Source: an uncultured Acidobacteriota bacterium
GTDB taxonomy: Bacteria; Acidobacteriota; Thermoanaerobaculia; Multivoradales; SZUA-115
Reading direction: 5' to 3'
NCBI GenBank assembly: GCA_937867335.1
Contig: CALMKX010000290.1
Span: forward strand, 1-33,566
Length of the DNA stretch: 33,566 nt
In this document: positions 240-26,950 of the stretch, one piece after another
Numbering within the stretch: the stretch's first letter is position 1
How the letters are laid out: each line of letters starts with the position of its first letter
Made by a program: the position numbers and the translations under genes
Notes under the pieces: generated by a model
What the model was told of the DNA's origin: nothing
What the model saw: the letters and a program-made list of their open reading frames with translations, nothing else
Database searches by the model: none

Positions 240-1580
<1,341 letters not shown>

Positions 1581-1939
1581 CAAGAGACCTGGAGCTTTCT
1601 CGGACCAGGCTTGCGGCCGGAAAGGGCGCGAAGCGCAGGTTCGAATGGGCCGGCGAAATGGTTCGGGGTAAGAAAACGGGGGGCTTGCCGGGGAGACCGC
1701 CGTAGGGCCGAAGGGGCCCGCTTCTCGGATTCGCACCGGGCAGGCCCGGCAGGAACGGGAGTGATGGTCTCATAGATCGGCCCAAACACCAAATCGAGAG
1801 CCTGCAGAGGGCCGGCCGAACGGAGAGCCAGCCCGCTGCGGTGCTCACCCTCGACCCTTTTGGGGTGGCTCCGCTCCTCGTGGCTCGGCTCCCCGTTCTT
1901 CGAGGTTGCCGGCTGGGGGTGTTGAGAGAGAATAGGCCC
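1581..1939. other. Divergent intergenic region, no clear signal
   Basis: A 359-bp stretch between the divergently transcribed helicase and toroid-protein genes. It must hold both promoters, but I found no convincing -35/-10 pair, hairpin or conserved repeat. Open frames that run through it are upstream extensions of the two flanking genes with no family resemblance. Confidence 0.5.
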
Positions 1940-3775
1940 ATGAGCCGCGGGGTCTTGATTCGTTTCGCCCTTCTTCTTCTCCTCCTCACCATGGCCTTCC
2001 TCCTCGCCCGCCGGTTGGCGCCGGTGGAGGCCGAGCCGGGGGCGGAGCATGCGAAAAAGCCCAAGGCCCTGAAGGTGCGGGTGAGCTCCTCGGACGAGCC
2101 CGAGGGGCTGAGCCTCACCCCGGAGCTGCGGAGCCAGCTGCTGGCGGCGGCTCGGGCCCGCCTGAGCGGGGGCAAAGTGGCTCCCGTGGCCGAGCCAGAG
2201 CCGGGCGGAGCTCGGCTGGTGATGGTCTCGTTGTCGCGGCCGAGTTCGCCGGCGGCGGTGGGTGTGGGAAGGGCCGGCAGCCTGGCGGCGGCCCTCGAGG
2301 CGGCGGTGGGGGAGGCGAGCGCGCTGCTCCGTGCCGAGGAGCGAGCCGGGGCTCGGCTGAAGATCGACGTGCTCTCGGAGCTCCTGCCGGAAGAGGAGTT
2401 CGACAGTCACGGCAAGTCCAGACTCGAGGCCGGGCCGGACGGCCTCTGGCTGCCCAAGCCGGACCTCTGGCTGCTGCCCGAAGAGATCGTGGCCAACCGC
2501 CTGGTGGACAAGGACGGCGACCTCCACGGCCCGCGCCTGCGCCAGCTCTTCGCCTCGAGCGCCCGGAAGCAGCGTGAGATTCCCGGCAACCCGGGCAAGA
2601 GCGGCGAGAAGCTGCGCCGGGCCCACTTCGAGAGCCTGGCCGAGGGGCCGGATGGCGCGCCTCTGGCGCTCTACCGCGGCAACACGCTCGAGCCGGCAAT
2701 CACCCCGGCCTCGTTGCTCACGGCAGCCCGGACGGGCGGCGACTATCTGGTGCGCCACCAGAGCCCCGACGGCCAGTTCGACTACCTCTACGAGCCCCAG
2801 AGTGACAGTGTGCCCAGCAAGAGCAACCAGCTGCGCCACGCCGGCACTTGCTACGCCCTGTTCGAGCTCTTCAAGGCCACAGAGGAGCGGGCCTACCTCG
2901 AAGCCGGCGAGAAGGGGCTCGCGGCCCTGGCGCGAGATATCCGACCGATCGACGCGAAGGCAGGCGAGCCACCCGTTCTGGCGCTGGCGGAGGACAGCGA
3001 GGCCAAGCTCGGCGGGGCGGCCCTCGCCCTGCTCGCGATGCTTCGCCACGAGGAGGTGGCGGGGCCCTCGGCCTACCGCGAGAAGCTGGCGCCGCTCGGG
3101 CGTTTCCTGGTTGCCCAACAAGACCCGGACGGGCACTTCCGCTCCAAGCATTTCTTCGGCGCGCCCGACCCGCACGACTTCGACTCGATCTACTACCCCG
3201 GCGAAGCGATTCTCGCGCTGACGCGGCTCCATCAGCTGGACGGCAACCCGCTCTGGCTCGCCACGGCCCGCAAGGGCGCCGATTGGCTGATCCAGGTGCG
3301 CGATGCCGGCAAGGCGATCTCGGACCTGCCCCACGACCACTGGCTCTTGATCGGCTTGAACGAGCTCGAGGAGCGCACCGGCGAGCGGCTCTACCTCGAG
3401 CAGGCGCAGAAGATCGCCCAGTCGATTCTCGAGGCGCAATGGGCGGAGAAAGCACCCCAGCCGGATTGGCGCGGGGGCTTCTACGATCCGCCTCGTTCCA
3501 CCCCCACCGCCACCCGCGGCGAGGCGCTGGTGGCCATGGTGCGGCTGGCCGAGCGCCGGCACCTGCCGAGCGAGGCCTATCGCAAGGCGCTCGTCGCCAT
3601 GGCGGCCTTCCAGCTGCGCACCCAGCTGCGGCCGGAGAACGTGCTCTACCTACCCAGGCCGGACCGCTCCCTGGGCGGTTTCCGTCGCAGCCTCACGGTG
3701 TGGGAAGTGCGCATCGACTACGTGCAGCACAACCTCTCCTCGCTTCTCGGGCTGCGTTCGCTCTTGCCAAGTTGA
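1940..3775 (+). CDS. Membrane-anchored alpha/alpha-toroid (six-hairpin glycosidase-like) protein
   Basis: A 611-aa protein of unknown function. Residues 5-23 form a strongly hydrophobic N-terminal segment (signal anchor or uncleaved signal peptide), so the rest probably lies outside the cytoplasm. The segment up to about residue 140 is Ala/Glu/Arg-rich and unassigned. From roughly residue 250 onward the sequence shows recurring helical hairpins of the kind found in six-hairpin glycosidase-like toroids: YLVRHQSPDGQFDY, the QLRHAGTCYALFEL helix, SIYYPGEAILALTRL and DHWLLIGLNELEE. The recurrent YLxxQxPDGxF pattern suggests a carbohydrate- or isoprenoid-type barrel, but no catalytic residues can be named. 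The ATG at 1940 was chosen because it directly precedes the membrane segment; an open frame extends 33 codons further upstream. It converges on the response regulator gene with a 4-bp gap. Confidence 0.75.
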   Translation: MSRGVLIRFALLLLLLTMAFLLARRLAPVEAEPGAEHAKKPKALKVRVSSSDEPEGLSLTPELRSQLLAAARARLSGGKVAPVAEPEPGGARLVMVSLSRPSSPAAVGVGRAGSLAAALEAAVGEASALLRAEERAGARLKIDVLSELLPEEEFDSHGKSRLEAGPDGLWLPKPDLWLLPEEIVANRLVDKDGDLHGPRLRQLFASSARKQREIPGNPGKSGEKLRRAHFESLAEGPDGAPLALYRGNTLEPAITPASLLTAARTGGDYLVRHQSPDGQFDYLYEPQSDSVPSKSNQLRHAGTCYALFELFKATEERAYLEAGEKGLAALARDIRPIDAKAGEPPVLALAEDSEAKLGGAALALLAMLRHEEVAGPSAYREKLAPLGRFLVAQQDPDGHFRSKHFFGAPDPHDFDSIYYPGEAILALTRLHQLDGNPLWLATARKGADWLIQVRDAGKAISDLPHDHWLLIGLNELEERTGERLYLEQAQKIAQSILEAQWAEKAPQPDWRGGFYDPPRSTPTATRGEALVAMVRLAERRHLPSEAYRKALVAMAAFQLRTQLRPENVLYLPRPDRSLGGFRRSLTVWEVRIDYVQHNLSSLLGLRSLLPS

Positions 3776-3779
3776 GCTG

Positions 3780-4466
3780 CTAGTTCAGGTCCGGGCGCTG
3801 CCTCTTGAGCCGGTAGCCGACGCCCTTGAGGGTTTCAAGCAGCGGAGCGTCGGCTTCGCCGTCGATTTTCTGACGCACCCGATGCACGGTGACGTCCACC
3901 ACATTGCTGAAGGAGTCGAAAGAATCGTCCCAGACGTGCTCCACGAGCTCGCTCTTCGATACCACCTCGTCCACCCGGCTCAAGAGATACTCGAGTACCG
4001 CGAACTCCTTCGGCCTCAAGGTCACCGGCTTGCCGGCCACTTCCACGGTGCGCTTGGCGCGGTCCATCACCACGTCGCCGGCGGCCAGCTGGGTGAGCAG
4101 CTGCCGATGCTGGCGGCGTAGCAGGGAGCGCACCCGGGCCAGGAGCTCGGGGAAGCGGAAGGGCTTGGTGAGGTAGTCGTCGGCACCGTGGTCGAGCCCG
4201 GAGATCATGTCGTCGAGCTCGCTCTTGCCGGTGAGCATCAGGACCGGTGTTTCTTTGCCGCTCTGGCGCCAGAGGGTCAAGAGCTCGATGCCGCTCGGCG
4301 GCGGGATCGACCAGTCGAGCACGATCAGGTCGTAGCTGTTGACGTCCGCCATCTCGGCGGCCGAGACCCCGTCCGCGGCTCGGTCCACGGCGTAGTTCTC
4401 GCCTTCCAAGAGCTCCAGGATGGCTCGAGCCAAGGCCTCGTTGTCCTCGACGACCAGAATCCTCAT
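3780..4466 (-). CDS. OmpR/PhoB-family response regulator (orphan)
   Basis: A 228-aa DNA-binding response regulator. The receiver domain (1-115) has the acidic pocket E7/D8, phosphoacceptor D51 (IVLDW), T79 and K101 (LTKPF). A winged-helix effector domain follows (about 125-225), with RPKEFAVLEYL, DVTVHRVRQKI and a final GVGYRL, the usual end of this family. The loop after D51 reads SIPPPSGIELL rather than the common LPGxSG form. The start is the ATG at 4466 opening MRILVVEDNE. No histidine kinase gene lies within the window, so the partner is elsewhere. The gene is divergent from the multicopper oxidase operon and shares a 322-bp intergenic region with it, which makes that operon a plausible target; this is inference. 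Confidence 0.93.
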   Translation of the reverse strand: MRILVVEDNEALARAILELLEGENYAVDRAADGVSAAEMADVNSYDLIVLDWSIPPPSGIELLTLWRQSGKETPVLMLTGKSELDDMISGLDHGADDYLTKPFRFPELLARVRSLLRRQHRQLLTQLAAGDVVMDRAKRTVEVAGKPVTLRPKEFAVLEYLLSRVDEVVSKSELVEHVWDDSFDSFSNVVDVTVHRVRQKIDGEADAPLLETLKGVGYRLKRQRPDLN

Positions 4467-4591
4467 CCGGCTGGCCTCTGCTTGGGTGAACGATTCCCAT
4501 TGTAGAGCCAAGACCCGGCCGGAGGAAGCGGCCGTGGGCAGGCGCAGGGGCGGCGCGAGTCCCCGCCGGTCGTCAGAGAACAGCCGACAAA

Positions 4592-4619
4592 TGTCCCTGG
4601 ACACCTATGCCCTTTTAAT
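4592..4619 (+). promoter_or_regulatory. Candidate operator and -10 element upstream of the oxidase operon
   Basis: TGTCC-CT-GGACA (4592-4603) is a 5+5 bp inverted repeat. Eleven bases downstream is TTTAAT (4614-4619), five of six matches to the sigma-70 -10 consensus. The -35 position, overlapped by the palindrome, is a poor match, as expected for an activator-dependent promoter. This would give a leader of roughly 160 nt. Short palindromes arise by chance, so confidence is low. Confidence 0.3.
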
Positions 4620-4788: not shown

Positions 4789-7700
4789 ATGAGAACCAGA
4801 TACCTTCAGCTCGGCCTGGCGCTGCTGGTGGCGGCGACTGCCGGCCTCGGGGCGGCCGCGCCGGTGGCTGCCCAAGCGGACGGGTTCGCCAGCTTGGAAG
4901 CCTCGGGCTCGGCCGCCTTTGCCTCCAACTGCCAGCGCCAGCTCACTGCCTCGGTGGTGGCTCTGGACCAGGTCTTCTTCTGGAATCGCCTGGGCGCCTT
5001 CGAGCCCCAGGGCATGATGTACGCCCTCGAGCGCGACGTGGTCAACGTCGGCCAGGACGAGCTCAACTGCGCCTCGCGCCGGCTGCCGTTGGTGGCCGGG
5101 CAGGTCAAGCTGCGCAAGGACAAGCGGCCCCGGCCGCTGGTGCTGCGCATGAACGTGGGCGATTGCCTGACCATCAAGTTCACCAACCTCCTGGCCAATG
5201 CGCCGGTGGACGACGAACAGCCGGCCACCCGGATGGCCTCGATCCACGTCCAGGGTCTCGAGTACGTGAGCTCGGTCGCCGACGGCGGTCTGAACGTGGG
5301 CCTGAACGCCACGGGAGGTGTGGTGGCCCCGGGCCAGACCACCTACTACCAGCTCTTCGCCCGCGCCGAAGGTACCTACTTGATGTACAGCGGCGGTGCC
5401 ATGGTGGGCGGGGGCGGCGATGGCGGCTCGATCGCGGACGGTCTCTTCGGCGCGGTGAACGTGCAGCCGACGAATACCGAGTGGTACCGCAGCCAGGTGA
5501 CCCAGCGGGACCTGGCGCGCGCGATCACCAACGGCTACCCCGGCAGCGCGGCTTATCCGCTGATCAACTACAACGCTACCTACCCGGCGGGCAACGAATA
5601 CTGCTTCGCCGCCGGCACGCCGGTGTTGAAGATGCTGCAGGCCACCTCGACAGGGGGCCTGGAGATCCTCTACTCCGACCTCACGGCGATCATCACCGGG
5701 CCCGATCACGGCTTCCTGCCGGTCAACTCCTATCCCAACACGCCGAACAACATCTACGTCGACCGACTGGAGCCCTACCGGGAATTCACCATCATCTTCC
5801 ACGACGAGATCCAGGCGGTGCAGGCCTTTCCCCACTTCCAGGATCGGCTGCTCCAGCACACCCTCCACAGCGCGCGCGACGCCTTCGCCATCAACTACGG
5901 CACCGGCGGCGCCGGCGCCGAGGTGCTGGCCAACCGGATCGGCGTGGGTCCGATGTGGAATTGCGTCGAGTGCAAGTACGAGGAGTTCTTCCTCACTTCC
6001 TGGGCGGTGGGCGACCCGGCGATGGTGGTGGATGTCCCGGCGAACTTCCCCTGCACCGTCCAGCAGCTCAAGGACGGCGTCAACTGCGTGCCGCAGCCGG
6101 GCCCGAAGGCCACCAAGGCGCTCTATCCGGACGACCCCTCGAACGTCTACCACAGCTACCTGAACGACAACGTGAAGTTCCGCAACCTGCACGCGGGTGT
6201 CGAAGACCACCACATCTTCCACCTGCACGCGCACCAATGGCTGCACACGCCGAACAGCGATCAGTCGGCGTACCACGACAGCCAGGCGATCGGTCAGGGC
6301 AGCGCCTTTACCTACGAAATCGCCTACGGCGGCAGCGGCAACCGCCCGAAGACGGTGGGGGATTCCATCTTCCACTGCCACTTCTACCCCCACTTCGCGC
6401 AGGGGATGTGGTCCCTGTGGCGGGTGCACGACGTGCTCGAGACCGGCACAGTGCTCGACGACAAGGGCCGGCCGGCGTGGCTCGGGGACGCGAACGGCAA
6501 CGTCACCACGATCACCCGAGCCTTGCCGGACGGCGAGATCCGCTACGGCACGCCGATTCCAGCTCTGGTGCCGCTACCGGGCCTGCCGATGGCGCCCGCC
6601 CCTGGGCCGGTTCAGCTGCGCAACGGCGACATCTACTTCGCCGCCACTCCCGCCACCAGCCCGGGCTACCCCTTCTTCGTGCCGGGCAAGGGCGGCCACC
6701 GCCCGCCCTCGCCGCCTCTCGACCTGATCGACAACGGCGGCCTGGGCCGCCATGTGATCGTCGGCGGCACGGCGGCGTCCGAACAGAACCGTCTCTCGAT
6801 GGCCAAGGACCTGCTCACCGCGCAGGCCAGCTTCTTGAACGAGCTGGGTACCAAGATCGAGAAGGTGGCCATGGCCTTCCACGAGGTCGCGAGCTACAAC
6901 ACGCCCAAGCCTGATTCGGGCGTGCTCGGCCTGTTCAAGACGAACGGCCTGCCGAGGATCCGGGGGGCGCCGTTCGCCGACCCCTGCAACGCGGCCGACG
7001 GAGCTCTGCTGCCGCCCCGCACCTACAAGGCGGCGGACATCCAGATGGACATGGTGTTCAACAAGGTCGGCTGGCACTTCCCGCAGCAGAGGCTGATCAC
7101 GCTGTGGGACGACGTGGTGCCCACCCTCTATGCCCGCAGGCCGCCGGAGCCCTTCTTCTTCCGCGCCAACAGCCGCGAGTGCATCGAGTTCCAGCTCACC
7201 AACCTGACGCCCAACGAATACCTGCTGGACGACTTCGAGGTGCGCACTCCGACCGACATCATCGGCCAGCACATCCACCTGGTGAAATTCGACGTGCTCG
7301 CCTCCGACGGCGGTGGCAACGGCTTCAACTACGAAGACGGCACCATGAGCGCCGAGGAAGTGCAAGAGCGCATCCGGGCGATCCGGGCCTTCAACTCCTG
7401 CCTGGGCGGGGTGACCGGCGGCGATCCCCGCGACGGCACCGACGCCTGCCCGGTGGCGGTGGCCCATCCCTACTTCACGCCCCGCGGCATCGACGCCGAC
7501 TGCGACGGCGTGGATGACTGGCTGGGCGCCCGCACCTCGGTGCAGCGCTGGTGGGCCGACCCGGTGCGCGACAACAACAACGTCGACCGCACCCTGCACA
7601 CGGTCTTCACGCACGATCACTTTGGGCCGTCGACCCACCAGCAAGTGGGCCTCTACGCCGGCCTGGTGATCGAAAAGGAAGGCAGCAGCTGGTTCCACAA

Positions 7701-10152
7701 CGAGACCAACGTGCCCCTCGGCACCCGCACTTCGGACGGCGGCCCCACTTCCTGGCAGGCGCGGATCGAAGGGCCGGACAGCTTCCGGGAGTTCCTGCTC
7801 GAGTTCGCCGACTTCCAGCACGCCTACGAGCCCAACCAGTTCGGGCCGCTGTCGGCCGGATCGCTGCAGCTTTCCTGCCCCGACACGCGCCTGGGCTTCT
7901 TCGACAACGTGGCGGCCGTGAACCCGCCGAACCGCGAGGAGCTGCCCCCGCCCACCCTCTACGACAAGGCACAGCAGTGCCCGATCAACCTCTGCGATCC
8001 GGACGGCACCGTGGTGCCGGCCACCGGCCTCGCGGCCACCCGCGGATTGCCCTGCCCGGAGGCCTTCTCGGCCGCCGACCCGGGTACCGGGGTGGTGAAC
8101 TACCGCAACGAATCGATCGCCCTCAGGGCGAAGCTCGACGGCCAGAACCTGCAAAACCCCACCGAGGCGGGAGATCTCTCGTTCATCTACGAGACCCGCA
8201 CCGACCGCTCGATCGCCTTGCTCAACGACCTGGCTCCGAACCCGTTGGTGCCTTATCCGCCGCTGACGACCGGCCTCTTCCCGGGTGATCCCTTCACGCC
8301 CTTGATGCGAGTCCACGAGGGCGATCGAGTCAAGGTGCGGACCCTGGTGGGAGCTCACGAAGAAGAGCACACCCAGGCGATCCACGGCGCGCATTGGCTG
8401 TTCGAGCCAAACGAACCGGATTCCGGCTTCCGCTCCTCGCAGATGGCCGGGATCTCCGAGTATTTCGACTTCGAGCTGGGTCGCATGCCGAGCCTCGGCA
8501 TCGGCGAGTCGGCGGACTTCCTCTACAAGCCGTCGAACAGCGTCGACTTCCAGTGGAACGGCGTCTGGGGGCTGATCCGCCTCTACCGCGGCGCGACCAC
8601 CGACCTGACGCCGATCAACGCCAACCCCGATGCCCTGGTGGCCACCGACGATGCCACCACCTTCCGCCCGGTAACCCTCACCCGGCCTCAGGACACCGGC
8701 GATACGTCGGCTAGCGCTCGCCGAGCCGACGGCTCCTTCGAGCTGGCGACCGAAGCGGCCACTGCCACCATCACCAAGCCGGTGCTCTGCCCGCGTGGAG
8801 CTCCGCTGCGCCACTACGACGTGGTGGCGGTGTGGGCGCAGGAAGCCCTGCCTCAGGGCACCTTGGTCTACAACTCGAGAAAGGACGTGGTCTACAAGTA
8901 CCAGCACGCTTCCGGCCTCGAATGCGACAGCGGCAGCCCGTGGGTGATCACCGACACCAAGCAGGGTCCGCTGCACGATCCGACGGCGATCCTCTTCTTG
9001 CTGCGCCAGGACTGGGATCCGGTCACCGGCCATATCCTGCCGGGTCGCAACATCGAGCCCCTGGTGCTGCGTGCCCTGCCGGGCGAGTGCGTGGAGGTGA
9101 GCCTCTACAACTCGATCGGTATCCATTCGCCGGTCGACTACGCCGACCTGGACGGCTGGGCCGGCGTGCCGATGATCGTCGAAGGTTTCAACCAGAACGA
9201 GGTCGATCCCTCGATGGACGTCGGCCTGCATCCGCAGCTGGTGGCCTACGACGTGCGCCTCTCGGACGGCACCAACGTGGGTCGCAACCGCGCCACCTTC
9301 TTCAACTACAAGCAGACCGTGGCGCCCTCGCAGACGGTGACCTACCACTGGTACACCGGCACGGTGAGCTACGACTCGCTGGGCAACGCCAACTTCCAGC
9401 CCGTGGAGTTCGGGGCGGTGCCGCTTTCCTCGTCCGATCCCATCAAGCACTCCAACAAGGGGGCGATCGGCGCCCTGATCGTCGAGCCGCTGAGCTCGAG
9501 CTGGCTGGACGCCACCGTCACCGATGTCCAGACGGGCCTGTCGGTGGTCAGCCACGCCCAGGCGCAGGTCACTACGCCTTCGGGCTCCTTCCGTGAGTTC
9601 GTGGCCTTCTACCAGGACGACGTCAACCAGCGCTACTCGGACGGCACTCCGGTGCCCAATCTGGCGGTCTCCAAGGACGCCACCGAGAGCGGGCAGGGCG
9701 GCTTCAACTACCGGGCGGAGCCGATCTGGTTCCGAGCCGGCTGGGCGCCCGAAACGCAGGTGGAGTTCACGCGCACGTTCACCGGTTTCGCCGACATCTT
9801 CCGCGACAGCTTCGTGGGCGCGCGGCCGCAGACTCCGATCGTTTCCGCCGTCCACGGCACCCCGGCCCGGTTCCGGGTGATCCACGCCGCGGGCGATACC
9901 CAGAACCAGGTTTTCGAGGTCACCGGCCACATCTTCCAGGAGGAGGCCTGCCTGGCCAACTCGACGGTGCTGGGCTTCAACGCCAGGTCGAACTGGGCCG
10001 GCTCCCAGCCCTCGATGAGCGCGGGCCGCAAGGCGGATCTGCTCTTCGACGCCTGCGGCGGACTGTTCGGGATCTCTCAGGAGCACCTGTACAAGACCTA
10101 CGTCCCGTGGTCGATCGACGAAGGGATGTGGGGGTTGTTCAACGTTCAGTAG
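4789..10152 (+). CDS. Giant multidomain multicopper oxidase, secreted (MofA/McoA-like)
   Basis: A 1787-aa exported protein with a signal peptide (about 1-30, ending APVAAQA) followed by some six cupredoxin-like domains. Copper motifs: HxxHxHxH at H475-H482 (HIFHLHAH), and HCHxxxHxxxxM at H529, C530, H531, H535, M540 (HCHFYPHFAQGMW), giving a full type 1 site plus half of a trinuclear centre. The other half appears later, as H828/H830 (GQHIHL) and H942/H944 (THDHF, with H950). The first domain lacks these ligands: H153-V-Q155 replaces HxH and GTYLMYS (195-201) replaces GTYxxHxH. A further His cluster (H1194, H1199, H1202) lies in about domain 4, and later domains keep only scattered ligands (H1481, H1714). 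Ordinary three-domain laccases are around 500 aa. This size and motif order recall the giant oxidases implicated in bacterial Mn(II) oxidation. First gene of a five-gene operon; substrate unproven. Confidence 0.9.
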   Translation: MRTRYLQLGLALLVAATAGLGAAAPVAAQADGFASLEASGSAAFASNCQRQLTASVVALDQVFFWNRLGAFEPQGMMYALERDVVNVGQDELNCASRRLPLVAGQVKLRKDKRPRPLVLRMNVGDCLTIKFTNLLANAPVDDEQPATRMASIHVQGLEYVSSVADGGLNVGLNATGGVVAPGQTTYYQLFARAEGTYLMYSGGAMVGGGGDGGSIADGLFGAVNVQPTNTEWYRSQVTQRDLARAITNGYPGSAAYPLINYNATYPAGNEYCFAAGTPVLKMLQATSTGGLEILYSDLTAIITGPDHGFLPVNSYPNTPNNIYVDRLEPYREFTIIFHDEIQAVQAFPHFQDRLLQHTLHSARDAFAINYGTGGAGAEVLANRIGVGPMWNCVECKYEEFFLTSWAVGDPAMVVDVPANFPCTVQQLKDGVNCVPQPGPKATKALYPDDPSNVYHSYLNDNVKFRNLHAGVEDHHIFHLHAHQWLHTPNSDQSAYHDSQAIGQGSAFTYEIAYGGSGNRPKTVGDSIFHCHFYPHFAQGMWSLWRVHDVLETGTVLDDKGRPAWLGDANGNVTTITRALPDGEIRYGTPIPALVPLPGLPMAPAPGPVQLRNGDIYFAATPATSPGYPFFVPGKGGHRPPSPPLDLIDNGGLGRHVIVGGTAASEQNRLSMAKDLLTAQASFLNELGTKIEKVAMAFHEVASYNTPKPDSGVLGLFKTNGLPRIRGAPFADPCNAADGALLPPRTYKAADIQMDMVFNKVGWHFPQQRLITLWDDVVPTLYARRPPEPFFFRANSRECIEFQLTNLTPNEYLLDDFEVRTPTDIIGQHIHLVKFDVLASDGGGNGFNYEDGTMSAEEVQERIRAIRAFNSCLGGVTGGDPRDGTDACPVAVAHPYFTPRGIDADCDGVDDWLGARTSVQRWWADPVRDNNNVDRTLHTVFTHDHFGPSTHQQVGLYAGLVIEKEGSSWFHNETNVPLGTRTSDGGPTSWQARIEGPDSFREFLLEFADFQHAYEPNQFGPLSAGSLQLSCPDTRLGFFDNVAAVNPPNREELPPPTLYDKAQQCPINLCDPDGTVVPATGLAATRGLPCPEAFSAADPGTGVVNYRNESIALRAKLDGQNLQNPTEAGDLSFIYETRTDRSIALLNDLAPNPLVPYPPLTTGLFPGDPFTPLMRVHEGDRVKVRTLVGAHEEEHTQAIHGAHWLFEPNEPDSGFRSSQMAGISEYFDFELGRMPSLGIGESADFLYKPSNSVDFQWNGVWGLIRLYRGATTDLTPINANPDALVATDDATTFRPVTLTRPQDTGDTSASARRADGSFELATEAATATITKPVLCPRGAPLRHYDVVAVWAQEALPQGTLVYNSRKDVVYKYQHASGLECDSGSPWVITDTKQGPLHDPTAILFLLRQDWDPVTGHILPGRNIEPLVLRALPGECVEVSLYNSIGIHSPVDYADLDGWAGVPMIVEGFNQNEVDPSMDVGLHPQLVAYDVRLSDGTNVGRNRATFFNYKQTVAPSQTVTYHWYTGTVSYDSLGNANFQPVEFGAVPLSSSDPIKHSNKGAIGALIVEPLSSSWLDATVTDVQTGLSVVSHAQAQVTTPSGSFREFVAFYQDDVNQRYSDGTPVPNLAVSKDATESGQGGFNYRAEPIWFRAGWAPETQVEFTRTFTGFADIFRDSFVGARPQTPIVSAVHGTPARFRVIHAAGDTQNQVFEVTGHIFQEEACLANSTVLGFNARSNWAGSQPSMSAGRKADLLFDACGGLFGISQEHLYKTYVPWSIDEGMWGLFNVQ

Positions 10153-10170
10153 CGAGAAGAGGCGATTGCC

Positions 10171-12204
10171 ATGTCCACTTCGTTCTCTTGCCATTTCCCA
10201 TGGGTGGAGCGGCTGGGCCGAGGCGCGGGTTTCTTGCTCGTCTCCTCCGCCTTCGCTCTGTCGCTCCTTGCCGCCCCGGCCGAGGCCGTCGCCCCGGTCG
10301 GGGCCCTTTTTCCCGCCCTCCTGGCCGCTTCGGCAACAGCCCCTGTGGCTCTGCCGCGCTACGTCAAGGACGGCCTGGCCGCCGAAGCCGAGCTCTTGCC
10401 CCTCGGCGCCAGCGGCAAGCTGGAGGAGGGCACACCGGTCGAGGTTCGCTTGCGGCTCAAGGACGCCACCACCGGCGAGCCGCTTTCGGGCTCCTATCCG
10501 GCGGCCTGGCTGGACCGGGTTCCGGATCCCGCGGCCGAGGCGGCGGACGCCTGCAAAGAAAAGATCCAGACCTTCCTCTCCGGCTCTCTGCTGTCGAAGC
10601 CGGAAACCGATCTCAACGCCTACTTCGTGCTCGGCCTCAATGCCGATCCTTCCATCACCGTGGTGGACCCCTTGTTCAGCTACGGCGGCAGCAAGCTCCT
10701 GGCCGAGCTCGCGCTGGAGGCGCCTGGGGAGGATTGGGCGGTGACTCCAGACGCCACCCAGCTCTTCGTTTCGATGCCGGACGTGGGCAAAGTGGCGGTT
10801 TTCGAGACCGCCTCGTGGAAATCCATGGGGGCGATCGCCACCGGCGGCCGGCCGATGCAGCTGCTGCTCCAGCAGGATGGCCGCTACCTCTGGGTGGGGG
10901 TGGAAGGAGAGGCGGGCGGAGCTGGCAGCGTCCTGGCTCTCGATACCGCGAGGCGCGCCGTGGTGGGCCGTTTCGCCCTGGGCGGGGGCCCGCTGGAGCT
11001 GGCGTTGGGCAAGGACGACCGCACTCTCCTGGTGGCGGATCGAGCTCGCTCCCAGCTGGTGGCCATCGACGTCGCGAGTCTGGCTGTCTCGGGCCGCCTG
11101 GCGGTCGAGGAGCCGCCGGTTTCCCTGGCCTATTCGGCGGTGGCCGATACCGTGTATCTGGCTCTGGCCGGCCGAGGCGAGATCCTCGCGATCGATGCTC
11201 GCCGGCTCGAGGTGGTGGCCCGGATGGAGGACGCCGCGGACCTCAGCGAGGTGCGAGTGGCACCGGGAGGCCGTCTCGGCTTCGCCCTCGCCCAGGCTCA
11301 CGATCGGGTGTACATCTTCGACACCGCTCGCAACCGCATCGTGCAGAAGGGGGAGACGGAGAAGGCTCCGGACCAGCTCTCTTTCAGCGACTCCCTCGCT
11401 TACATTCGCCACGCCGGCAGTGAGACGGTGTTGATGATCGCCTTGGCCGGCGCCGGGGTGGAGGGCCAGCCGATCGCCGTGGTGGACTTTCCCGGCGGCC
11501 AGCGGCCCTTCGGCAAGGTGAGCCGGCCAGCTCGAGCTCGCGGCATCGTGGCGGCTCCGGGCGAGCCGGCGGTGCTGGTGGCCAACCCGGCTGACGGGAT
11601 GATCTATTTCTACAAAGAAGGCATGGCCGCCCCCATGGGCAGCTTCCAGAACTACGGTCACGAGCCGCGCGCGGCGGCCGTGGTGGACCGCAGCCTGAAA
11701 GAGCGCCAACCCGGGGTGTACTCCACGGTGGCCGAGCTTGGGCCCGCCGGCACGCTGGAACTGGCGTTCTTCCTCAACCAGCCCCGGGCCTACCACTGCT
11801 TCCGCTTCGAAGTCGCCGAGGATCCGCGGCTCGCCCGGGAGCGCGAGAAGAAGCAAGCGGTGCGAGTGGAGTACCTGCCAGGCGCCGCCCGCAGCCTGCC
11901 GGCCACACCGCTCGCGGTGCGCTTCCGGCTGGTCGATCGCGAGAGCGGAACCGCCCGAGCCGGCCGCCACGACGTGGTGGCGCTGGTGTTCCAGGTGCCC
12001 GGCACCTGGCAGAGCCGACTCCTGGCCGAGCCGCTCGCCGACGGCAGCTACGAAGTGCGCTTCACCCCGCGGGACGAAGGGATCTACGCCCTGCAGATCG
12101 AAGCCCGAGCCCTGGGTCTCGCCCTGCAGGAATCTCCCACCTGGTCGATCGTGGTGGGCAACCTCGAGCCGCAGCCAAGCCAAGCGGCTCCCGCTTCGAA
12201 ATGA
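10171..12204 (+). CDS. Secreted YVTN-type beta-propeller protein with flanking YtkA-like domains
   Basis: A 677-aa exported protein with a signal peptide over roughly residues 18-40. The central part (about 155-500) consists of repeated blade motifs such as LFVSMPDVGKVAVFET, VLALDTARRAVVGRFAL and VYIFDTARNRIVQ, the pattern of cytochrome-D1-like/YVTN beta-propellers. It has no heme-binding CxxCH motif. Before the propeller is a short segment (PVEVRLRLKDATTGEPL, 89-105) and after it a fuller beta-domain (about 590-660, with PLAVRFRLVDRESG and GSYEVRFTPRDEGIYALQI); both resemble YtkA-like Ig-fold domains. A conserved-looking Cys lies at 128 (ACKEKI). It starts 18 nt after the oxidase stop, with GAGAAGAGG as ribosome binding site, so it is co-transcribed. 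I infer a scaffold or partner of the oxidase; its biochemical role is unknown. Confidence 0.85.
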   Translation: MSTSFSCHFPWVERLGRGAGFLLVSSAFALSLLAAPAEAVAPVGALFPALLAASATAPVALPRYVKDGLAAEAELLPLGASGKLEEGTPVEVRLRLKDATTGEPLSGSYPAAWLDRVPDPAAEAADACKEKIQTFLSGSLLSKPETDLNAYFVLGLNADPSITVVDPLFSYGGSKLLAELALEAPGEDWAVTPDATQLFVSMPDVGKVAVFETASWKSMGAIATGGRPMQLLLQQDGRYLWVGVEGEAGGAGSVLALDTARRAVVGRFALGGGPLELALGKDDRTLLVADRARSQLVAIDVASLAVSGRLAVEEPPVSLAYSAVADTVYLALAGRGEILAIDARRLEVVARMEDAADLSEVRVAPGGRLGFALAQAHDRVYIFDTARNRIVQKGETEKAPDQLSFSDSLAYIRHAGSETVLMIALAGAGVEGQPIAVVDFPGGQRPFGKVSRPARARGIVAAPGEPAVLVANPADGMIYFYKEGMAAPMGSFQNYGHEPRAAAVVDRSLKERQPGVYSTVAELGPAGTLELAFFLNQPRAYHCFRFEVAEDPRLAREREKKQAVRVEYLPGAARSLPATPLAVRFRLVDRESGTARAGRHDVVALVFQVPGTWQSRLLAEPLADGSYEVRFTPRDEGIYALQIEARALGLALQESPTWSIVVGNLEPQPSQAAPASK

Positions 12205-12213
12205 GGCCTGGCG

Positions 12214-12876
12214 ATGAGACCGAGAGCCTTCTTCACTCCGACGGGTCGTTCTTCGCTCGTTCTTCTGGCCCTGCTCTGCCTCCCAGATCTCGCCTCCGGC
12301 GCCCTGTCCGCGGCCGAGATGCCTTGCCATCACGAAGCCGCGAGCGAGCCGGTTGTGGAGGTTTCGCCCTCGACGATCGAGCTCCCGGCCGTGACCCTGG
12401 TCGACCAGGACGGTCGCTCCGTGGAGCTCACGAGCTTCGCCCGGGGCAAATGGGTGGCGGTGAACTTCATTTTCACCACCTGCACCACCATCTGCCCACC
12501 GATGGGCGCCAACTTCGCCAAGCTGGCCCGGGAGCTCGGCGACCGGCTGGGCCGCGACGTCGAGCTGGTGTCGATCAGCATCGACCCGACGGTGGACACC
12601 CCCGCCCGGCTCAAGGCCTGGCGGAACAAGTTCGGCGTCGAGGCGGGCTGGACCCTCTTGACCGGCGCCAAGCCCCAGGTGGACCGCGTTCTGCGCGTCT
12701 TCGGCGTCACCACCGGCTCGCCCAGCTCGCACACTCCGCTGCTCTTCGTGGGCAGGGGCTCGGGCTCCACCTGGCAGCGCCTCTACGGCATGACGCCGCC
12801 GGCCGAGGTGGTGGCCACCCTCGGCCGCCTGGCCGAGCTCGAAGGCGGGAGCTCCGAGAAAGGGGTGGGCCGATGA
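12214..12876 (+). CDS. SCO1/SenC-family copper chaperone (first of two)
   Basis: A 220-aa thioredoxin-fold protein exported through an N-terminal signal peptide (about 1-33). It has the family copper site: CxxxC at C90 and C94 (FTTCTTICPP) and the distal histidine H173 (SSHTPLLF). SCO proteins deliver copper to, or reduce cysteines of, exported copper enzymes, classically the CuA site of cytochrome oxidase. No cytochrome oxidase genes are nearby; the adjacent giant multicopper oxidase is the likely client. Just after the signal peptide is MPCHH (36-40), which could be an additional copper-binding patch. It begins 9 nt after the propeller gene, with GAGG overlapping that gene's stop region, and its own stop overlaps the next gene by 4 bp (ATGA). 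Confidence 0.93.
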   Translation: MRPRAFFTPTGRSSLVLLALLCLPDLASGALSAAEMPCHHEAASEPVVEVSPSTIELPAVTLVDQDGRSVELTSFARGKWVAVNFIFTTCTTICPPMGANFAKLARELGDRLGRDVELVSISIDPTVDTPARLKAWRNKFGVEAGWTLLTGAKPQVDRVLRVFGVTTGSPSSHTPLLFVGRGSGSTWQRLYGMTPPAEVVATLGRLAELEGGSSEKGVGR

Positions 12877-13460
12877 GCGCTCGCAGGCTCGCTCCGTTCT
12901 GGGCTCTGGCCGCGATCCTCGTACTGCTACCGGCCTTCGGAGCTGCCGGCGAGGACGTCGCCCGCCGCCGCGAGGCCGGCCGGGCCTACTTCACCGATGT
13001 CGTGCTGATCGACCAGCAGGGCCACGAGCAGCGGCTGTGGAGCGACCTGGTGGAAAACCGGGTGGTGCTGATCAGCCCCTTCTTCACCCACTGCGAGGGC
13101 GTGTGCCCGAAGCTCTCGGCCACCCTCGGGCGCCTGCAGGACCGGCTCGGCGATCGCCTGGGCAAGGACGTGCTGATGCTCTCGATCACCGTCGATCCGG
13201 CCCGCGACACCCCGGCCAAGGTGCGCGAGTACGCGGCCCAGCTCAAGGCCAGGCCGGGCTGGTTGTTCCTCTCGGGCAAGAAGGAGAATGTGGACCTCGC
13301 GCTCACCAAGCTCGGCTACTACGTCGATCAACCGGAGGGGCACAGCAACCTGGTGATCGTCGGCAATGAGCGAACGGGCCTGTGGAAGAAGGCCTTCGGA
13401 CTGGCGAGCGCGGAGGAGCTGGAAGCAGTGCTCCAGTCGGTGCTTCGGGATGCGGGCTAG
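12873..13460 (+). CDS. SCO1/SenC-family copper chaperone (second of two)
   Basis: A 195-aa paralogue of the preceding protein, with a signal peptide (about 1-26), CxxxC at C74 and C78 (FFTHCEGVCPK) and H157 (EGHSNLVIV), so all three copper ligands are kept. H73, directly before the first Cys, is a possible extra ligand. The sequence differs strongly from the first SCO protein outside the motifs, so this is not a recent duplication; the two may act in sequence, one as copper donor and one as thiol reductase. The ATG at 12873 overlaps the upstream stop (ATGA), indicating translational coupling; its own 3' end overlaps the cytochrome gene by 11 bp. Confidence 0.92.
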   Translation: MSARRLAPFWALAAILVLLPAFGAAGEDVARRREAGRAYFTDVVLIDQQGHEQRLWSDLVENRVVLISPFFTHCEGVCPKLSATLGRLQDRLGDRLGKDVLMLSITVDPARDTPAKVREYAAQLKARPGWLFLSGKKENVDLALTKLGYYVDQPEGHSNLVIVGNERTGLWKKAFGLASAEELEAVLQSVLRDAG

Positions 13461-15003
13461 GGCCGTCCTCGCCACCCTGCTGGCATTTGCCTCGGCCGAG
13501 CTGAGCGGGCTTCCTCTGGCGGCAGCCGAGCCGCTCTCGGCCGCGGCGTTGCGCGGCAAGCAGTTCTACCTCAACGGCCAGGCTCCGGGAGGGGCGGAGG
13601 TGGTGGCTCAGCTCGAGGGAGGCGCGGAGGTGCCCGCCACCACGCTCTCCTGCCAGAGCTGCCACGGCTACGATGGCCGCGGCCGGCCGGAAGGCTCGGT
13701 GGCGCCGCCGAGCGTGTTCTGGTCGGCTCTCACCCGACCCTACGAGGTGCAGGCGGCGAACGGCCGCACCCGGCCGGCCTACGACGAATCCAGCCTGAAG
13801 CGGGCCCTGATGCTCGGGCTCGATTCGGCCGGCAACCGCCTCTCGCCGGTGATGCCCCGCTACCGGCTGCCCCGCGACGTGGCGGCGGACTTGATCGCCT
13901 ACCTGAAGCGGCTGGACGACGAGCGCGACCCGGGAGTGGCAGAGCAAGAGCTCAGCTTCGGCACGGTGCTGCCTCCCGACGCTCATGCCGCGGAGGCGCT
14001 GCGGCGGCTGTTCGATGGCCTGTTCGAGGGCATCAACCAGGGAGGCGGTATCTACGGCCGGAAACTCCGCCTGGCGACCCTCGAGACTCGAGACGGGCCG
14101 GCGACCGAGGAGAGGCTGCGGCGGTTCGTGGCCGACGACCAGCCGTTCGCCCTGCTCGCTCCCTGGGCTCAGGGTGAGGAAGCGGCGCTCACGGCGCTCG
14201 CCGCCGGGGAGCGGCTGCCGCTCCTGGGTCTCGCGGCGGGGGAGCCGGTGGATGCCGCTTCCGCGGCCCGCTACTGCTTCTACCTCCAGCCAGGAGAAGC
14301 CGGAGTCCTCGAGGGCCTCGCCGAATGGTGGCGCGGGCACCACCGGCCGGGCGAGCGCCTGGCTCTGCTGCTGCCGGAGGAGCCCCTGGCCCGGGCCCGA
14401 GCCAGGGCCGTCGCCGAGCGCCTGGAGGGCGAAGCGCCGCAGGTCGAGAGCTACCCGCCGGGCCGGTTGGAGCCATCTCTGCTGCTGGCGAGGCTCGGAG
14501 CGGAGGTTTCGGCCGTGCTCTTTCTGGGTACTCCGGGCGACGCCGAGGAGCTCCTCGGTGCGGCTGCCAGCGGCAAGCTCTGGCTGATGCCAGGGCGCTC
14601 CTTCGCCGGCCTGCTGTCGAGGCCCCGCCCCGACTTCGGCGGCCGGCTCCTGGCCGGCTTCCCGGACTGGCCCACGGACTTCGATCCCCAGGCTCTCGAA
14701 ACCATCCGCCGGCTCGCAGGCCTCGGCCCCGGGCCGGATTCTTCGCTTCCCCTGCTACGCCAGGCCTACGCCGCCACCGGCCTCGCGGTGGAAGCCCTGC
14801 GGCGCCTGGGCCGGGACGTCCGCCGTGAAGGCCTCGTGGAAACCCTGGCCCAGATCTACGACTTCCCCACAGGAGTCATGCGCCCCCTGAGCTTCGGCCG
14901 AGGACGCCAGAGCGGCACCGACGGCCTCTACGTGGTCGAATTCGACCCAGTGAGCGCCCGGCCCAAGGCCGAGCCCGAGTGGGTGGGGCTTACGCGGTTT
15001 TGA
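13450..15003 (+). CDS. c-type cytochrome fused to a periplasmic ligand-binding domain
   Basis: A 517-aa exported protein. A signal peptide (about 1-26) is followed by a mono-heme cytochrome c domain with CxxCH at C68-H72 (LSCQSCHGYDGRG) and probable axial Met at M135 (SPVMPRY). From about residue 163 it continues into a type I periplasmic-binding-protein fold of the branched-chain amino acid/amide class (for example GLFEGINQGGGIYGRKL and the late YAATGLAVEALRRL). In the usual proteins this domain binds a small ligand for a transporter or receptor; no transporter genes are present here. As last gene of the oxidase operon it could carry electrons from the oxidase, with the second domain serving docking or sensing; this is inference. 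The start at 13450 lies inside the upstream SCO gene; the longer open frame from 13366 lacks a signal peptide at its start. The 3' end overlaps the convergent membrane-protein gene by 14 bp. Confidence 0.85.
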   Translation: MRARAVLATLLAFASAELSGLPLAAAEPLSAAALRGKQFYLNGQAPGGAEVVAQLEGGAEVPATTLSCQSCHGYDGRGRPEGSVAPPSVFWSALTRPYEVQAANGRTRPAYDESSLKRALMLGLDSAGNRLSPVMPRYRLPRDVAADLIAYLKRLDDERDPGVAEQELSFGTVLPPDAHAAEALRRLFDGLFEGINQGGGIYGRKLRLATLETRDGPATEERLRRFVADDQPFALLAPWAQGEEAALTALAAGERLPLLGLAAGEPVDAASAARYCFYLQPGEAGVLEGLAEWWRGHHRPGERLALLLPEEPLARARARAVAERLEGEAPQVESYPPGRLEPSLLLARLGAEVSAVLFLGTPGDAEELLGAAASGKLWLMPGRSFAGLLSRPRPDFGGRLLAGFPDWPTDFDPQALETIRRLAGLGPGPDSSLPLLRQAYAATGLAVEALRRLGRDVRREGLVETLAQIYDFPTGVMRPLSFGRGRQSGTDGLYVVEFDPVSARPKAEPEWVGLTRF

Positions 15004-23247: not shown

Positions 23248-23547
23248 ATGAGCCCAGAGCGCCTCACCCTCCGCCAGGAGCTCACCCGGCTCCTGTCGGA
23301 GGCGCCGTGGTCCTGGCACGACCTCCGGCGCCAGCTGGAGCTGCCGGTGCGCCTGCTCGAGGACGAGCTCCGCCACGTGGAAAAGAGCGCGCGCTCAGCG
23401 GGCCGGCGGCTGGTGATCGAACCGGCCTTCTGCCCCGCCTGCGAGTTGGTCTTTCACGACCGGTCTCTTCGCCATCTCCATCCCCCGAGCCGGTGTCCGA
23501 GGTGCGGGGCGAAGAGGCTCCTGGGGCCGGTCTTCTCGGTCCGCTAG
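23248..23547 (+). CDS. Predicted transcriptional regulator, HTH plus zinc ribbon (COG3357-like)
   Basis: A 99-aa protein with an N-terminal winged-helix-like segment (LTLRQELTRLLSEAPWSWHD and LRRQLELPVRLLEDELRHV, about 6-45). A C-terminal zinc ribbon uses C62/C65 (FCPAC) and C83/C86 (RCPRCG). This matches a small family of predicted DNA-binding proteins known mainly from archaea and scattered bacteria. The ATG at 23248 follows the ADOP permease stop by 39 bp, so the two could be co-transcribed. Its last 153 bp overlap the 3' end of the kinase gene on the other strand; the zinc-ribbon codons lie in that overlap. Regulatory targets unknown. Confidence 0.75.
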   Translation: MSPERLTLRQELTRLLSEAPWSWHDLRRQLELPVRLLEDELRHVEKSARSAGRRLVIEPAFCPACELVFHDRSLRHLHPPSRCPRCGAKRLLGPVFSVR

Positions 23548-26361
23548 GCGAGGCGGTGGCGCGAGCCCAGCGGGCGCGGGCTCGTAGCGAGAGGCGAGCG
23601 CCGGCCTTCCCCAGGCGCGATAGAGCGCCGCCACGCGGGCCCTGGCGCTCGTCGCCATCAGGCTTTCGGCGGGCAGCTGGGCCGAGATGGTGGCAAGGGC
23701 CGCGAGCAGCAGGGGCTCCGCCTCGCTGAAACGGCCGAGCCGGGCGCGGCAGCTGCCGAGCAGGGCCTTGCTCCAGGCGAGATCGAGATGGTCCGCCGGC
23801 AGAGTGCGCTGGCGGCTCTGATAGCTCGCCTCGAAGTAGGGTTCGGCGAGGTCGAAACGCCGGCTCTTGGCGTACATCTCACCGCGATCGGCGTAGGTCA
23901 TGGCGATTTTCGGATGGTTGGGGCCCAGGACCCTGCGGAACAGCGCCTCGGCCTGCTCCTCGAGAGCCACGGCCCGGTCCAGACGACCTCGCTGGAAAGC
24001 CAGCCGGCCCGAAAGCACCAGCCCCTCGCCCACCCAGCTGTGGGTCTCGCCGTAGGCCTCGCGGGCGAGCTCAAGGCCGCGGTCGAGGCTCTCTTCGGCC
24101 TGATCGAGCCGGCCGAGCTGGAATTCGAGGCCGCCCAGGTGGATCAGGCAGCTCGCCTGGAGCAGCGGGCTCGGGTTCTGGCGGCGGGCGAGAGCCTCGA
24201 GGGTCTGGCGGTAGCCTCGCTCGGCCTCGGTGTAGCGCCCGAGGCCCTGCTGAGCTTCGGCCAAGGCGATGCGGCCGGCGAGGGTGTCCGGATGGTCCGG
24301 CCCGAGGCTCTTCTCCAGGGCCTCCCGAGCGCTCTCCGCGAGCTCGAGGGCGGCGTCGAACCGGCCGAGGTCGATCATCAGGTCGGCGAGCTCGAGGCGC
24401 ACGGCGGCGGTGTTCGCGTGGTCTTCGCCGAGCTGCCGGCGAGTGATCTCGAGCACCCGCCGGAGCAGCCTCTCGGCCTCGACGAAGCGAGCTCGACCCC
24501 GCTCGACGGCGGCCAGCTGCACCATCACCCGCGCCACTCCCGGCCCCTCCCTACCCTCGTACCGCTCGAAGGCGGCGAGGGCTTCCTCGAGTACCGGGCC
24601 CGCTTCCTCCCGGCGGTCGAGGGCGAACAGCACGCCGGCCCATTGGCGCAGGGCATCTCCCAGGAGACGACCCTGCGGCTCCACCTGGCGCAGGATCGAG
24701 ACGGCACGCCGCAACATCCACTCGGCCTCGGACGGCCGGCCCTGCTGGAGCCGGGCGCCGGCCAGGCTGATCAGGCTCTTGACCGTGGGGATCGCCTTCG
24801 GCCCGTCGGTCGTCTGTCGATGGACCAGCGCCCTCTTGAGCAGCGGCAGCGCCCGCTCGGTGAGCCCGAGGCCGAGGTAGCCACGCCCCAGGGCGTCCTC
24901 GAGAGCGGCGCCGACCTCCGGATCGAGAGAGCTCTGCGAGTCGAGCTGCTCGGCGGCGCGGTCCAGGAATTGGGCCACCGTGAGGGCGGCTCCGCGATCT
25001 TGATGAGGGTCCGCTTGCTCCAGGGTCTCCACCAGAAGGTTGAGCGTTCGCTGCGCGCGGTCCCGCTCGCGGCTGGCGCGGCGGCTCTCGAGCAGGGCGG
25101 TGGCCAGCGCCTGACCGACGAGCATCGCGGCGAGCGCTGCTGCGGCCAGGCTCCGCCGGTGGCGGCGGAGGAACTTCCGCAGCCGGTAGCCGAAGGTCGC
25201 CGGGCGGGCCAGGATGGGTCGCAGCTCGCGGTAGCGGGCGAGATCCTCGGCCAGCTCGGCCGCCGAGGCATAGCGGTCCGCTGGCTGTTTGGCCAAAGCC
25301 TTCCGGGCGATGGTGCCGAGGTCCCCGCGCAGGCGGCGGACGAGCTCTCGGGGCGTTGTGCCGCGCGCCGCGGCGAGGGCACGCTGGAGCTCCGGCGAGG
25401 CGGTCGCCACGGCTTGGCCGAGCGAGAGCGGCTCCTGCTCGAGCACGGCCTGCTCGAGCTCGAAAGCCAGCCCGCGGTCGAGCCGGTAGGGCGAGACGCC
25501 GGCCAGCAGCCGGTAGAGCAGCACTCCCAGCGAGTAGAGATCGCTCGCGGTCGAAACCGGCCCACCCAGCACCTGTTCGGGGCTGGCGTAGGCCGGGGTC
25601 ATCACCCTGAGGCCGGTGCGAGTGGCCTCGGGATGGCCGTCCTCGCCGCCGTCGTCCAGGCGCTTGGCGATGCCGAAGTCGAGCAGCTTGGGTTCGCCCT
25701 CGGCGGTCACCAGCACGTTGCCGGGCTTCAGATCCCGATGCACCAGCAGGTTCTGGTGAGCGTGCTGGACCGCCTGGCAGAGCCGGCCGAAGAGCTCCAG
25801 CCGAGCTTCGAGGCTCAGCCGGTGCTCATCGCAGTAGCGGTCGATCGGCTGGCCTTCGAGGTACTCCATCACCAGGTAAGGCCGGCCGTCCGCGGTCATG
25901 CCGCCGTCGTAGAGGCGGGCGATGCCGGGATGCTCCAGACGAGCGAGGATCTGGCGCTCCGCGCGGAAACGGGCGAGGCCATCCCGCGTGGCGAGGGCCG
26001 GGCCGAGGACTTTGATCGCCACCTGCTGGTGGAAATGCGGCTCGACCCGATGGGCCAGGTAGACGGTGCCCATGCCGCCCCGGGCCAGCACGCCGTCGAG
26101 GCGGTAGGGGCCCAGGCTGTCGCCCGCGGCGAGCTCGTTCCTGCTGCCTCCAGGCGGCTCGAGGAAGCCCTCCGCGCTGGAGTCGGCTGCCAGCAGCCGC
26201 TCGACTTCCTGCCGCAGCCCGTCCGAATCCGGGCAGGCGCCCGCGAGCCAGCCGGGCCGCAGCTCGGCCGGTTGCTCGAGGGCCGCCTGGAACAGTCGCT
26301 CGAGCCGGCGCCAGCGCTCCTCGAACTCGCCCGGGGCGGTCGCCTCGGCGCCCTCGGGCAT
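23395..26361 (-). CDS. Membrane Ser/Thr protein kinase with TPR sensor region
   Basis: A 988-aa PknB-type kinase. A short N-terminal helical domain (about 12-60, ERWRRLERLFQAALEQP) is typical of acidobacterial and planctomycete kinases paired with ECF sigma factors. The kinase domain (about 85-385) has LARGGMGTVY, catalytic K117 (VAIK), HRDLKPGN with D210, DFG (228-230) and the APE-like YASPEQ (258-263), so it should be active. One transmembrane helix (about 404-423) follows. The extracytoplasmic part (about 430-925) is a run of TPR repeats such as LGLTERALPLLKRALVHR and LGRYTEAERGYRQTL. After about residue 930 comes a Pro/Arg-rich tail encoded antisense to the zinc-ribbon gene. The start ATG is one base after the sigma-factor stop: the two genes form one translational unit. 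Confidence 0.92.
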   Translation of the reverse strand: MPEGAEATAPGEFEERWRRLERLFQAALEQPAELRPGWLAGACPDSDGLRQEVERLLAADSSAEGFLEPPGGSRNELAAGDSLGPYRLDGVLARGGMGTVYLAHRVEPHFHQQVAIKVLGPALATRDGLARFRAERQILARLEHPGIARLYDGGMTADGRPYLVMEYLEGQPIDRYCDEHRLSLEARLELFGRLCQAVQHAHQNLLVHRDLKPGNVLVTAEGEPKLLDFGIAKRLDDGGEDGHPEATRTGLRVMTPAYASPEQVLGGPVSTASDLYSLGVLLYRLLAGVSPYRLDRGLAFELEQAVLEQEPLSLGQAVATASPELQRALAAARGTTPRELVRRLRGDLGTIARKALAKQPADRYASAAELAEDLARYRELRPILARPATFGYRLRKFLRRHRRSLAAAALAAMLVGQALATALLESRRASRERDRAQRTLNLLVETLEQADPHQDRGAALTVAQFLDRAAEQLDSQSSLDPEVGAALEDALGRGYLGLGLTERALPLLKRALVHRQTTDGPKAIPTVKSLISLAGARLQQGRPSEAEWMLRRAVSILRQVEPQGRLLGDALRQWAGVLFALDRREEAGPVLEEALAAFERYEGREGPGVARVMVQLAAVERGRARFVEAERLLRRVLEITRRQLGEDHANTAAVRLELADLMIDLGRFDAALELAESAREALEKSLGPDHPDTLAGRIALAEAQQGLGRYTEAERGYRQTLEALARRQNPSPLLQASCLIHLGGLEFQLGRLDQAEESLDRGLELAREAYGETHSWVGEGLVLSGRLAFQRGRLDRAVALEEQAEALFRRVLGPNHPKIAMTYADRGEMYAKSRRFDLAEPYFEASYQSRQRTLPADHLDLAWSKALLGSCRARLGRFSEAEPLLLAALATISAQLPAESLMATSARARVAALYRAWGRPALASRYEPAPAGLAPPPRLADREDRPQEPLRPAPRTPARGMEMAKRPVVKDQLAGGAEGRFDHQPPAR

Positions 26362-26362
26362 C

Positions 26363-26950
26363 TCAGCCGCTCGCCGGTTGAGGGGTGAAGCCTGGGGCGA
26401 GCTCCTGGAACAACCAGGCTCGAGCCAGGCGCCAATGCCGGCCGATGGTCTCGGACGAGACCCCCAGAGCCTGGGCGGTTTCCTCTAAGGTGAGGCCAGC
26501 GAAGAAGCGCAGCTCGACGATGCGGGCCTTGAGCGGGTCTCTGGCGGCGAGCCCGTGGAGGGCGTCGTCGAGAGCCACCAGGTCGAGGGGGCGGTCGCGG
26601 CCGAGGTCCGCCACCTCGACCAGACTCGCCCGCTGCGCCTGGCCGCCCCGCTTGAGCCGGTTGCGGTTGCGTGCGTGGTCCACCAGGATTCGGCGAATCA
26701 GGTGGGCGGCGAAGCTGTAGAAGTGATTCCGGCTGGGCCAGCTGAACCCCTGTCCCTCGGCCAGGCGCAGGTAGGCTTCGTGGACCAGGGCGGTGGCCTG
26801 GAGGGTGTGGTCTCCCCGCTCGTGGGCGAAGAGGCCGACCGCGATCTTCTTCAGCTCCTCATAGACCACAGGCAGGAGCTGGGAGGCGGCCTCGGAGTCG
26901 CCCGAGCTCCAACGCTCGAGCAGCTCGGTGAGAGGAAGGTCGTTGGTCAT
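26363..26950 (-). CDS. ECF-type RNA polymerase sigma factor, kinase-linked (ECF43-like)
   Basis: A 195-aa sigma factor with region 2 (about 15-95) and region 4 (about 135-190, with IVELRFFAGLTLEETAQALG as the helix-turn-helix). In region 2.2, where most ECF factors carry an acidic DAED-like motif contacting the core enzyme, this protein reads LQATALVHEAYLRL (50-63), with threonines T49 and T53 and no acidic cluster. That is the signature of sigma factors activated by phosphorylation from a linked Ser/Thr kinase (EcfP/PknT of Vibrio parahaemolyticus). No anti-sigma gene is adjacent; the kinase gene starts one base downstream. The ATG at 26950 begins MTNDLPLTELL. Own promoter probably lies in the 105-bp gap upstream. 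Confidence 0.92.
   Translation of the reverse strand: MTNDLPLTELLERWSSGDSEAASQLLPVVYEELKKIAVGLFAHERGDHTLQATALVHEAYLRLAEGQGFSWPSRNHFYSFAAHLIRRILVDHARNRNRLKRGGQAQRASLVEVADLGRDRPLDLVALDDALHGLAARDPLKARIVELRFFAGLTLEETAQALGVSSETIGRHWRLARAWLFQELAPGFTPQPASG

Follow-up and report, generated by a model that had tools for sequence, protein, structure and literature searches.

A probable MnxG-type manganese oxidation operon in an acidobacterium

The 33,566-nucleotide stretch of acidobacterial DNA analysed here, hereafter the window, carries at positions 4789-15003 five same-strand genes that probably constitute an MnxG-type manganese oxidation operon. A sequence-only reading of this DNA had proposed an exported metal-oxidase system in an acidobacterium, likened by oxidase size to MofA and McoA, which are implicated in Mn(II) oxidation, and built with unusual partners. 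The exported metal-oxidase system stands, and the proposed relatives and the novelty of the partners do not. The locus is an acidobacterial version of the known mnxG system, and no new kind of machine.

The first gene (4789-10152, plus strand) encodes an exported, 1787-aa giant multicopper oxidase of the MnxG type, recognized through the NCBIfam family NF041487, PDB entry 9bxa and relatives that are 55-60% identical to it. Downstream on the same strand are a 677-aa secreted beta-propeller of the YVTN/YncE type (10171-12204), two SCO1/SenC copper chaperones, SCO A (12214-12876, 220 aa) and SCO B (12873-13460, 195 aa), and a 517-aa fusion of a mono-haem cytochrome c with a Peripla_BP_6 substrate-binding domain (13450-15003). 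An open reading frame check recovered all five frames where the sequence-only reading had placed them, with the same spacing of 18 nt and 9 nt between the first three genes and overlaps of 4 nt and 11 nt between the last three, and the export signals claimed for all five N-termini can be recognized by eye. Chance does not explain the tight packing, because many genomes contain these five genes in this order. A high GC content at third codon positions backs the frames of the oxidase, propeller, SCO A and cytochrome genes; the SCO B gene is absent from the automatic gene caller's list and rests on its Pfam match, and an alternative in-frame ATG at 13366 would extend the cytochrome fusion to 545 aa.

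The earlier family assignments were borne out by Pfam, NCBIfam and PDB searches. Both chaperones match PF02630 (5.5e-21 for SCO A and 1.2e-17 for SCO B) and keep the CxxxC motif, as CTTIC in SCO A (C90/C94) and CEGVC in SCO B (C74/C78), and SCO A also matches the SCO structure 4hde (E=4.2e-17). The closest PDB entry to the propeller is the surface-layer protein 1l0q (E=9.7e-18), and its profile matches are TIGR03866, YncE and the hydrazine-synthase beta subunit, accompanied by weak YncE/cytochrome-D1-like matches in Pfam. The fusion protein matches PF13458 (3.6e-19) and PF00034 (7.5e-4) and carries the haem motif CQSCH at residues 68-72; a PDB search with it returned no match.

Searched against NCBIfam, the oxidase matched a single family, the manganese-oxidizing MnxG family NF041487, at 1371.5 bits (E=0) over three stretches. 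In the PDB, only Bacillus MnxG gave a strong match (9bxa, E=7.6e-86), and Pfam added a weak Cu-oxidase_3 match. Significant similarity to MnxG thus runs along the protein in both NF041487 and 9bxa, which places it in a broad MnxG-like family. For comparison, NF041487 gives 2229 bits for a Hyphomonadaceae protein and 2300 bits for a further acidobacterial one, the best relatives found, 333 bits for the Bacillus-type MnxG homologue of Priestia megaterium, about a quarter of the window oxidase score, and 152 bits for a second giant-oxidase family of the same order. Judged by these profile scores, the window oxidase is nearer to Pseudomonas MnxG than Bacillus-type MnxG is, yet it is not an equivalog by the NCBI rule, which sets the cut-off for the Pseudomonas type at 3100 bits. 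With a score below this cut-off, the oxidase cannot be called an ortholog of Pseudomonas MnxG with certainty.

The copper sites of the oxidase are complete. In an alignment with 40 relatives, every histidine and cysteine ligand is invariant and the axial methionine is kept in 39 of them. The motifs stand in the permuted order C-D-A-B, an order shared with the homologous Bacillus enzyme, and together provide all type 1 and trinuclear ligands: motif C, HIFHLHAH, at 6211-6234 (H475, H478, H480); motif D, HCHFYPHFAQGM, at 6373-6408 (H529, C530, H531, H535, M540); motif A, HIH, at 7270-7278 (H828, H830); and motif B, HDH, at 7612-7620 (H942, H944), all on the plus strand.

The gene set argues in the same direction as the oxidase. 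In Pseudomonas putida GB-1, the mnxG operon (PputGB1_2447 onward) consists of mnxG, a propeller with 40-residue YVTN repeats, two SCO1/SenC genes, a cytochrome-c/amino-acid ABC substrate-binding protein and SurA (PMC11409713 Table 4), and its first five genes and their order are the same as in the window. This type of operon is conserved in strains MS-1 and DSV-1 (PMC11409713), and strain OF001 has a matching one (PMC8218464 Fig. 2c). The partners that had seemed unusual are therefore those of a published operon (PMC11409713, PMC8218464). The two systems differ in that the window oxidase is about 150 aa shorter than Pseudomonas MnxG (1787 versus 1944 aa; PMC3600357) and in that the sixth Pseudomonas gene, SurA, has no counterpart adjoining the window operon: no SurA-like gene was found in the neighbourhood, where the operon is followed by a GT87-like gene on the opposite strand (14990 to about 16650). 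Bacillus MnxG is a protein of about 1220 aa that works with MnxE and MnxF (PMC5622069), and no genes resembling these occupy the 184 nt between the upstream regulator ORF, which extends to 4604, and the oxidase start at 4789. Unlike the window operon, the mnxG gene of Priestia has no SCO/cytochrome set annotated beside it.

The same comparison bears on MofA of Leptothrix and McoA of P. putida, which are likewise giant multicopper oxidases linked to manganese oxidation. That the locus is a system of their type is suggested by the similar size of the oxidase and by the SCO gene adjoining mcoA in GB-1, but this SCO gene is the sole conserved neighbour of mcoA (PMC11409713), and the mof operon comprises mofA, the mip-like mofB and the cytochrome gene mofC (PMC8218464). 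Both the best profile match and the five-gene order belong to mnxG, and we regard a MofA/McoA-type system as very improbable.

Manganese is the best-supported substrate, because a strain of P. putida in which MnxG alone is produced oxidizes Mn(II) and Mn(III) (PMC5906577) and because an mnxG deletion strain forms manganese oxide ten-fold more slowly, the double knockout forming none (PMC11930936). For the window oxidase, we infer Mn(II) oxidation from homology and gene context, in keeping with the substrate favoured by the sequence-only reading. Its closest characterized relatives by profile and PDB search are manganese oxidases and not enzymes with organic substrates. Multicopper oxidases often accept several substrates, and an MnxG-like enzyme of the same architecture could act physiologically on something else, for instance Fe(II), Cu(I) or a phenolic or other organic compound, with manganese oxidation as a side reaction. 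The oxidase shares 44-45% identity with the top-scoring members on the Pseudomonas MnxG profile, which leaves room for such a change, as does a score below the equivalog cut-off, and the oxidase paralogues of several relatives suggest that substrate may have diverged within the family. We nevertheless consider another substrate unlikely: all partner genes correspond to those of the mnxG operon in Pseudomonas, among characterized enzymes the only close relatives of the window oxidase are manganese oxidases, and the Bacillus-type MnxG, whose family has been shown to oxidize Mn(II), is more distant in profile score from the Pseudomonas enzyme than the window oxidase is.

By analogy, the giant oxidase would be exported and would receive its copper from one of the SCO proteins or from both. 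Mn(II), and in the case of Pseudomonas MnxG also Mn(III), would be oxidized at the type 1 copper site formed by motifs C and D, and the electrons would reach O2 by way of the trinuclear center, to which all four motifs contribute, yielding Mn(III/IV) oxide outside the cytoplasm. We infer the roles of the SCO, propeller and cytochrome proteins in the same way. The propeller, a near-obligate partner of the oxidase, is probably structural or substrate-delivering. The cytochrome fusion had been cast as the component that removes electrons. A multicopper oxidase reduces O2 with these electrons at a trinuclear site of its own, so this role is not required, and a part in copper loading or maturation fits better because the fusion is paired with the SCO genes. 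Most likely it either provides electrons for the loading of copper or has a share in maturation. Were electron removal its role after all, electrons from the metal could pass through the operon cytochrome c into the respiratory chain and yield energy. A c-type cytochrome is indeed encoded in all mnxG-bearing genomes of the order, and passages of PMC11409713 and PMC11930936 that cite Caspi 1998 and de Vrind 1998 describe cytochrome c maturation genes as needed for manganese oxidation in P. putida. However, the intact trinuclear copper site means that the oxidase can reduce O2 itself, a genome search for RuBisCO gave no match, and four oxidase copies in relatives (L002, L041, L042 and L044) have no cytochrome nearby. 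A respiratory system thus appears doubtful, and less probable than the use of a different substrate.

The only regulator in the neighbourhood of the manganese oxidation operon is of the OmpR type (PF00072 and PF00486). Its gene, which the sequence-only reading did not mention, is divergent from the operon (3780-4604, minus strand) and is a candidate operon regulator. At six related mnxG-type loci, regulators are 51-63% identical to it, some of them beside histidine kinases. In Pseudomonas, control is exerted by the sensor kinases MnxS1/S2 and the sigma-54-dependent regulator MnxR. None of these lies in the neighbourhood here, where they would not have to be adjacent, and regulation of the window operon may differ. 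We considered a minus-strand ORF at 1580-3562 as the kinase partner of this regulator and rejected it, as it has no Pfam match and a plus-strand ORF at 1841-3775 is the likelier gene. Searches found no sigma-70 promoter-like site, and terminator-like sites occurred at chance level. Elsewhere in the window, a zinc or manganese uptake transporter is encoded at 29094-31773 (plus strand) by genes for a ZnuA-type metal-binding protein, an ABC ATPase and a likely permease, and at 23395-26950 (minus strand) an ECF sigma factor adjoins a protein kinase with TPR repeats. A search for animal haem peroxidases (MopA) gave no match in any control genome.

Whether the five genes keep company in related genomes was assessed in a set of 59 genomes from the same order, the source genome included. 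The MnxG clade is present in 14 of them, the cytochrome/substrate-binding fusion in exactly the same 14, and the propeller in those 14 plus one more (G042). The chance of the exact match between MnxG and the fusion is 1/C(59,14)=7.5e-14 if genomes are treated as independent and shared ancestry is ignored. The gene set is therefore recurrent, in line with the cooperation that its packing had suggested. The same five-gene order is found at eleven other loci (L003, L038, L039, L040, L046 with L009, L047, L048, L049, L051, L052 and L058), among which the oxidase lies in at least two frames in L049 and L052 and is cut by a contig end in L046 and L051. In seven of these, from other Acidobacteriota and a Hyphomonadaceae MAG (L003, L038-L040, L047, L048 and L058), the oxidases are 38-57% identical to that of the window.

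Other related loci depart from this pattern, with modules that are reordered, split or duplicated (L053, L054, L060, G008 and G022). The gene set is reordered at L053, L054 and L060, the oxidase copies of L041, L042 and L044 have only a propeller beside them, that of L002 has none of the partners beside it, and G008 carries its SCO-SCO-cytochrome unit on a separate contig (L091). Several related genomes hold two or three oxidase paralogues. In wider samples, NF041487 matched at E<=1e-50 in 9 of 396 Acidobacteriota and in two genomes, G431 among them, of a set of 398 sampled around G431. The oxidase tree, built by a quick method with several open forks and with no authentic Pseudomonas sequence included, groups the window oxidase with that of a genome of the same family (G002) within an acidobacterial group, outside which fall Indioceanicola and the pair formed by G244 and the Hyphomonadaceae sequence.

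The survey also brought up several further systems. A second giant multicopper oxidase family (L063-L073; length about 1690-1854 aa, identity to the window oxidase 27-28%) is common in the same order, has all copper ligands and in some cases lies near SCO-like genes. Plasmid-borne alphaproteobacterial operons (L075, L079, L081, L084 and L085) encode giant MnxG-like oxidases of about 1850-2430 aa that are annotated as hypothetical. Behind the oxidase, most of these operons continue with a protein at the place of the propeller, a single SCO and a cytochrome. A LodA-like/haem-oxygenase-like protein adjoins a distant mnxG-propeller pair (L062:13142-17068). The Hyphomonadaceae mnxG operon is immediately preceded by genes for a secretin, a type II secretion ATPase and pseudopilin-like proteins (L003:888-9787), which may be relevant to how the oxidase is exported. 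The genome from which the window derives has three secretin matches.

Because some oxidase copies have only a propeller or nothing beside them, and because the SCO-SCO-cytochrome unit of G008 lies on another contig, we tentatively suggest that the MnxG system could consist of two separable modules. An enzyme module of oxidase and propeller, duplicated in acidobacteria and perhaps retargeted to different substrates, would be accompanied by a maturation module of two SCO proteins and the cytochrome fusion, able to serve several oxidase copies. This arrangement is a possibility that we would not yet favour.

Acidobacteriota are common in soils and sediments, and the present locus places a complete mnxG-type operon among them. 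Earlier, manganese oxidase homologues in this phylum had received passing mention, in a Thermoanaerobaculia MAG (PMC9224936). That oxidase, propeller and cytochrome fusion occur together in the 59-genome set is an argument that the downstream genes of the Pseudomonas operon, which have been little studied, belong functionally to the manganese oxidase system. If the two-module arrangement is true, the cytochrome/substrate-binding fusion would be an obligatory and so far unstudied maturation factor of MnxG, and would offer one candidate explanation for the loss of manganese oxidation in P. putida mutants defective in cytochrome c maturation.
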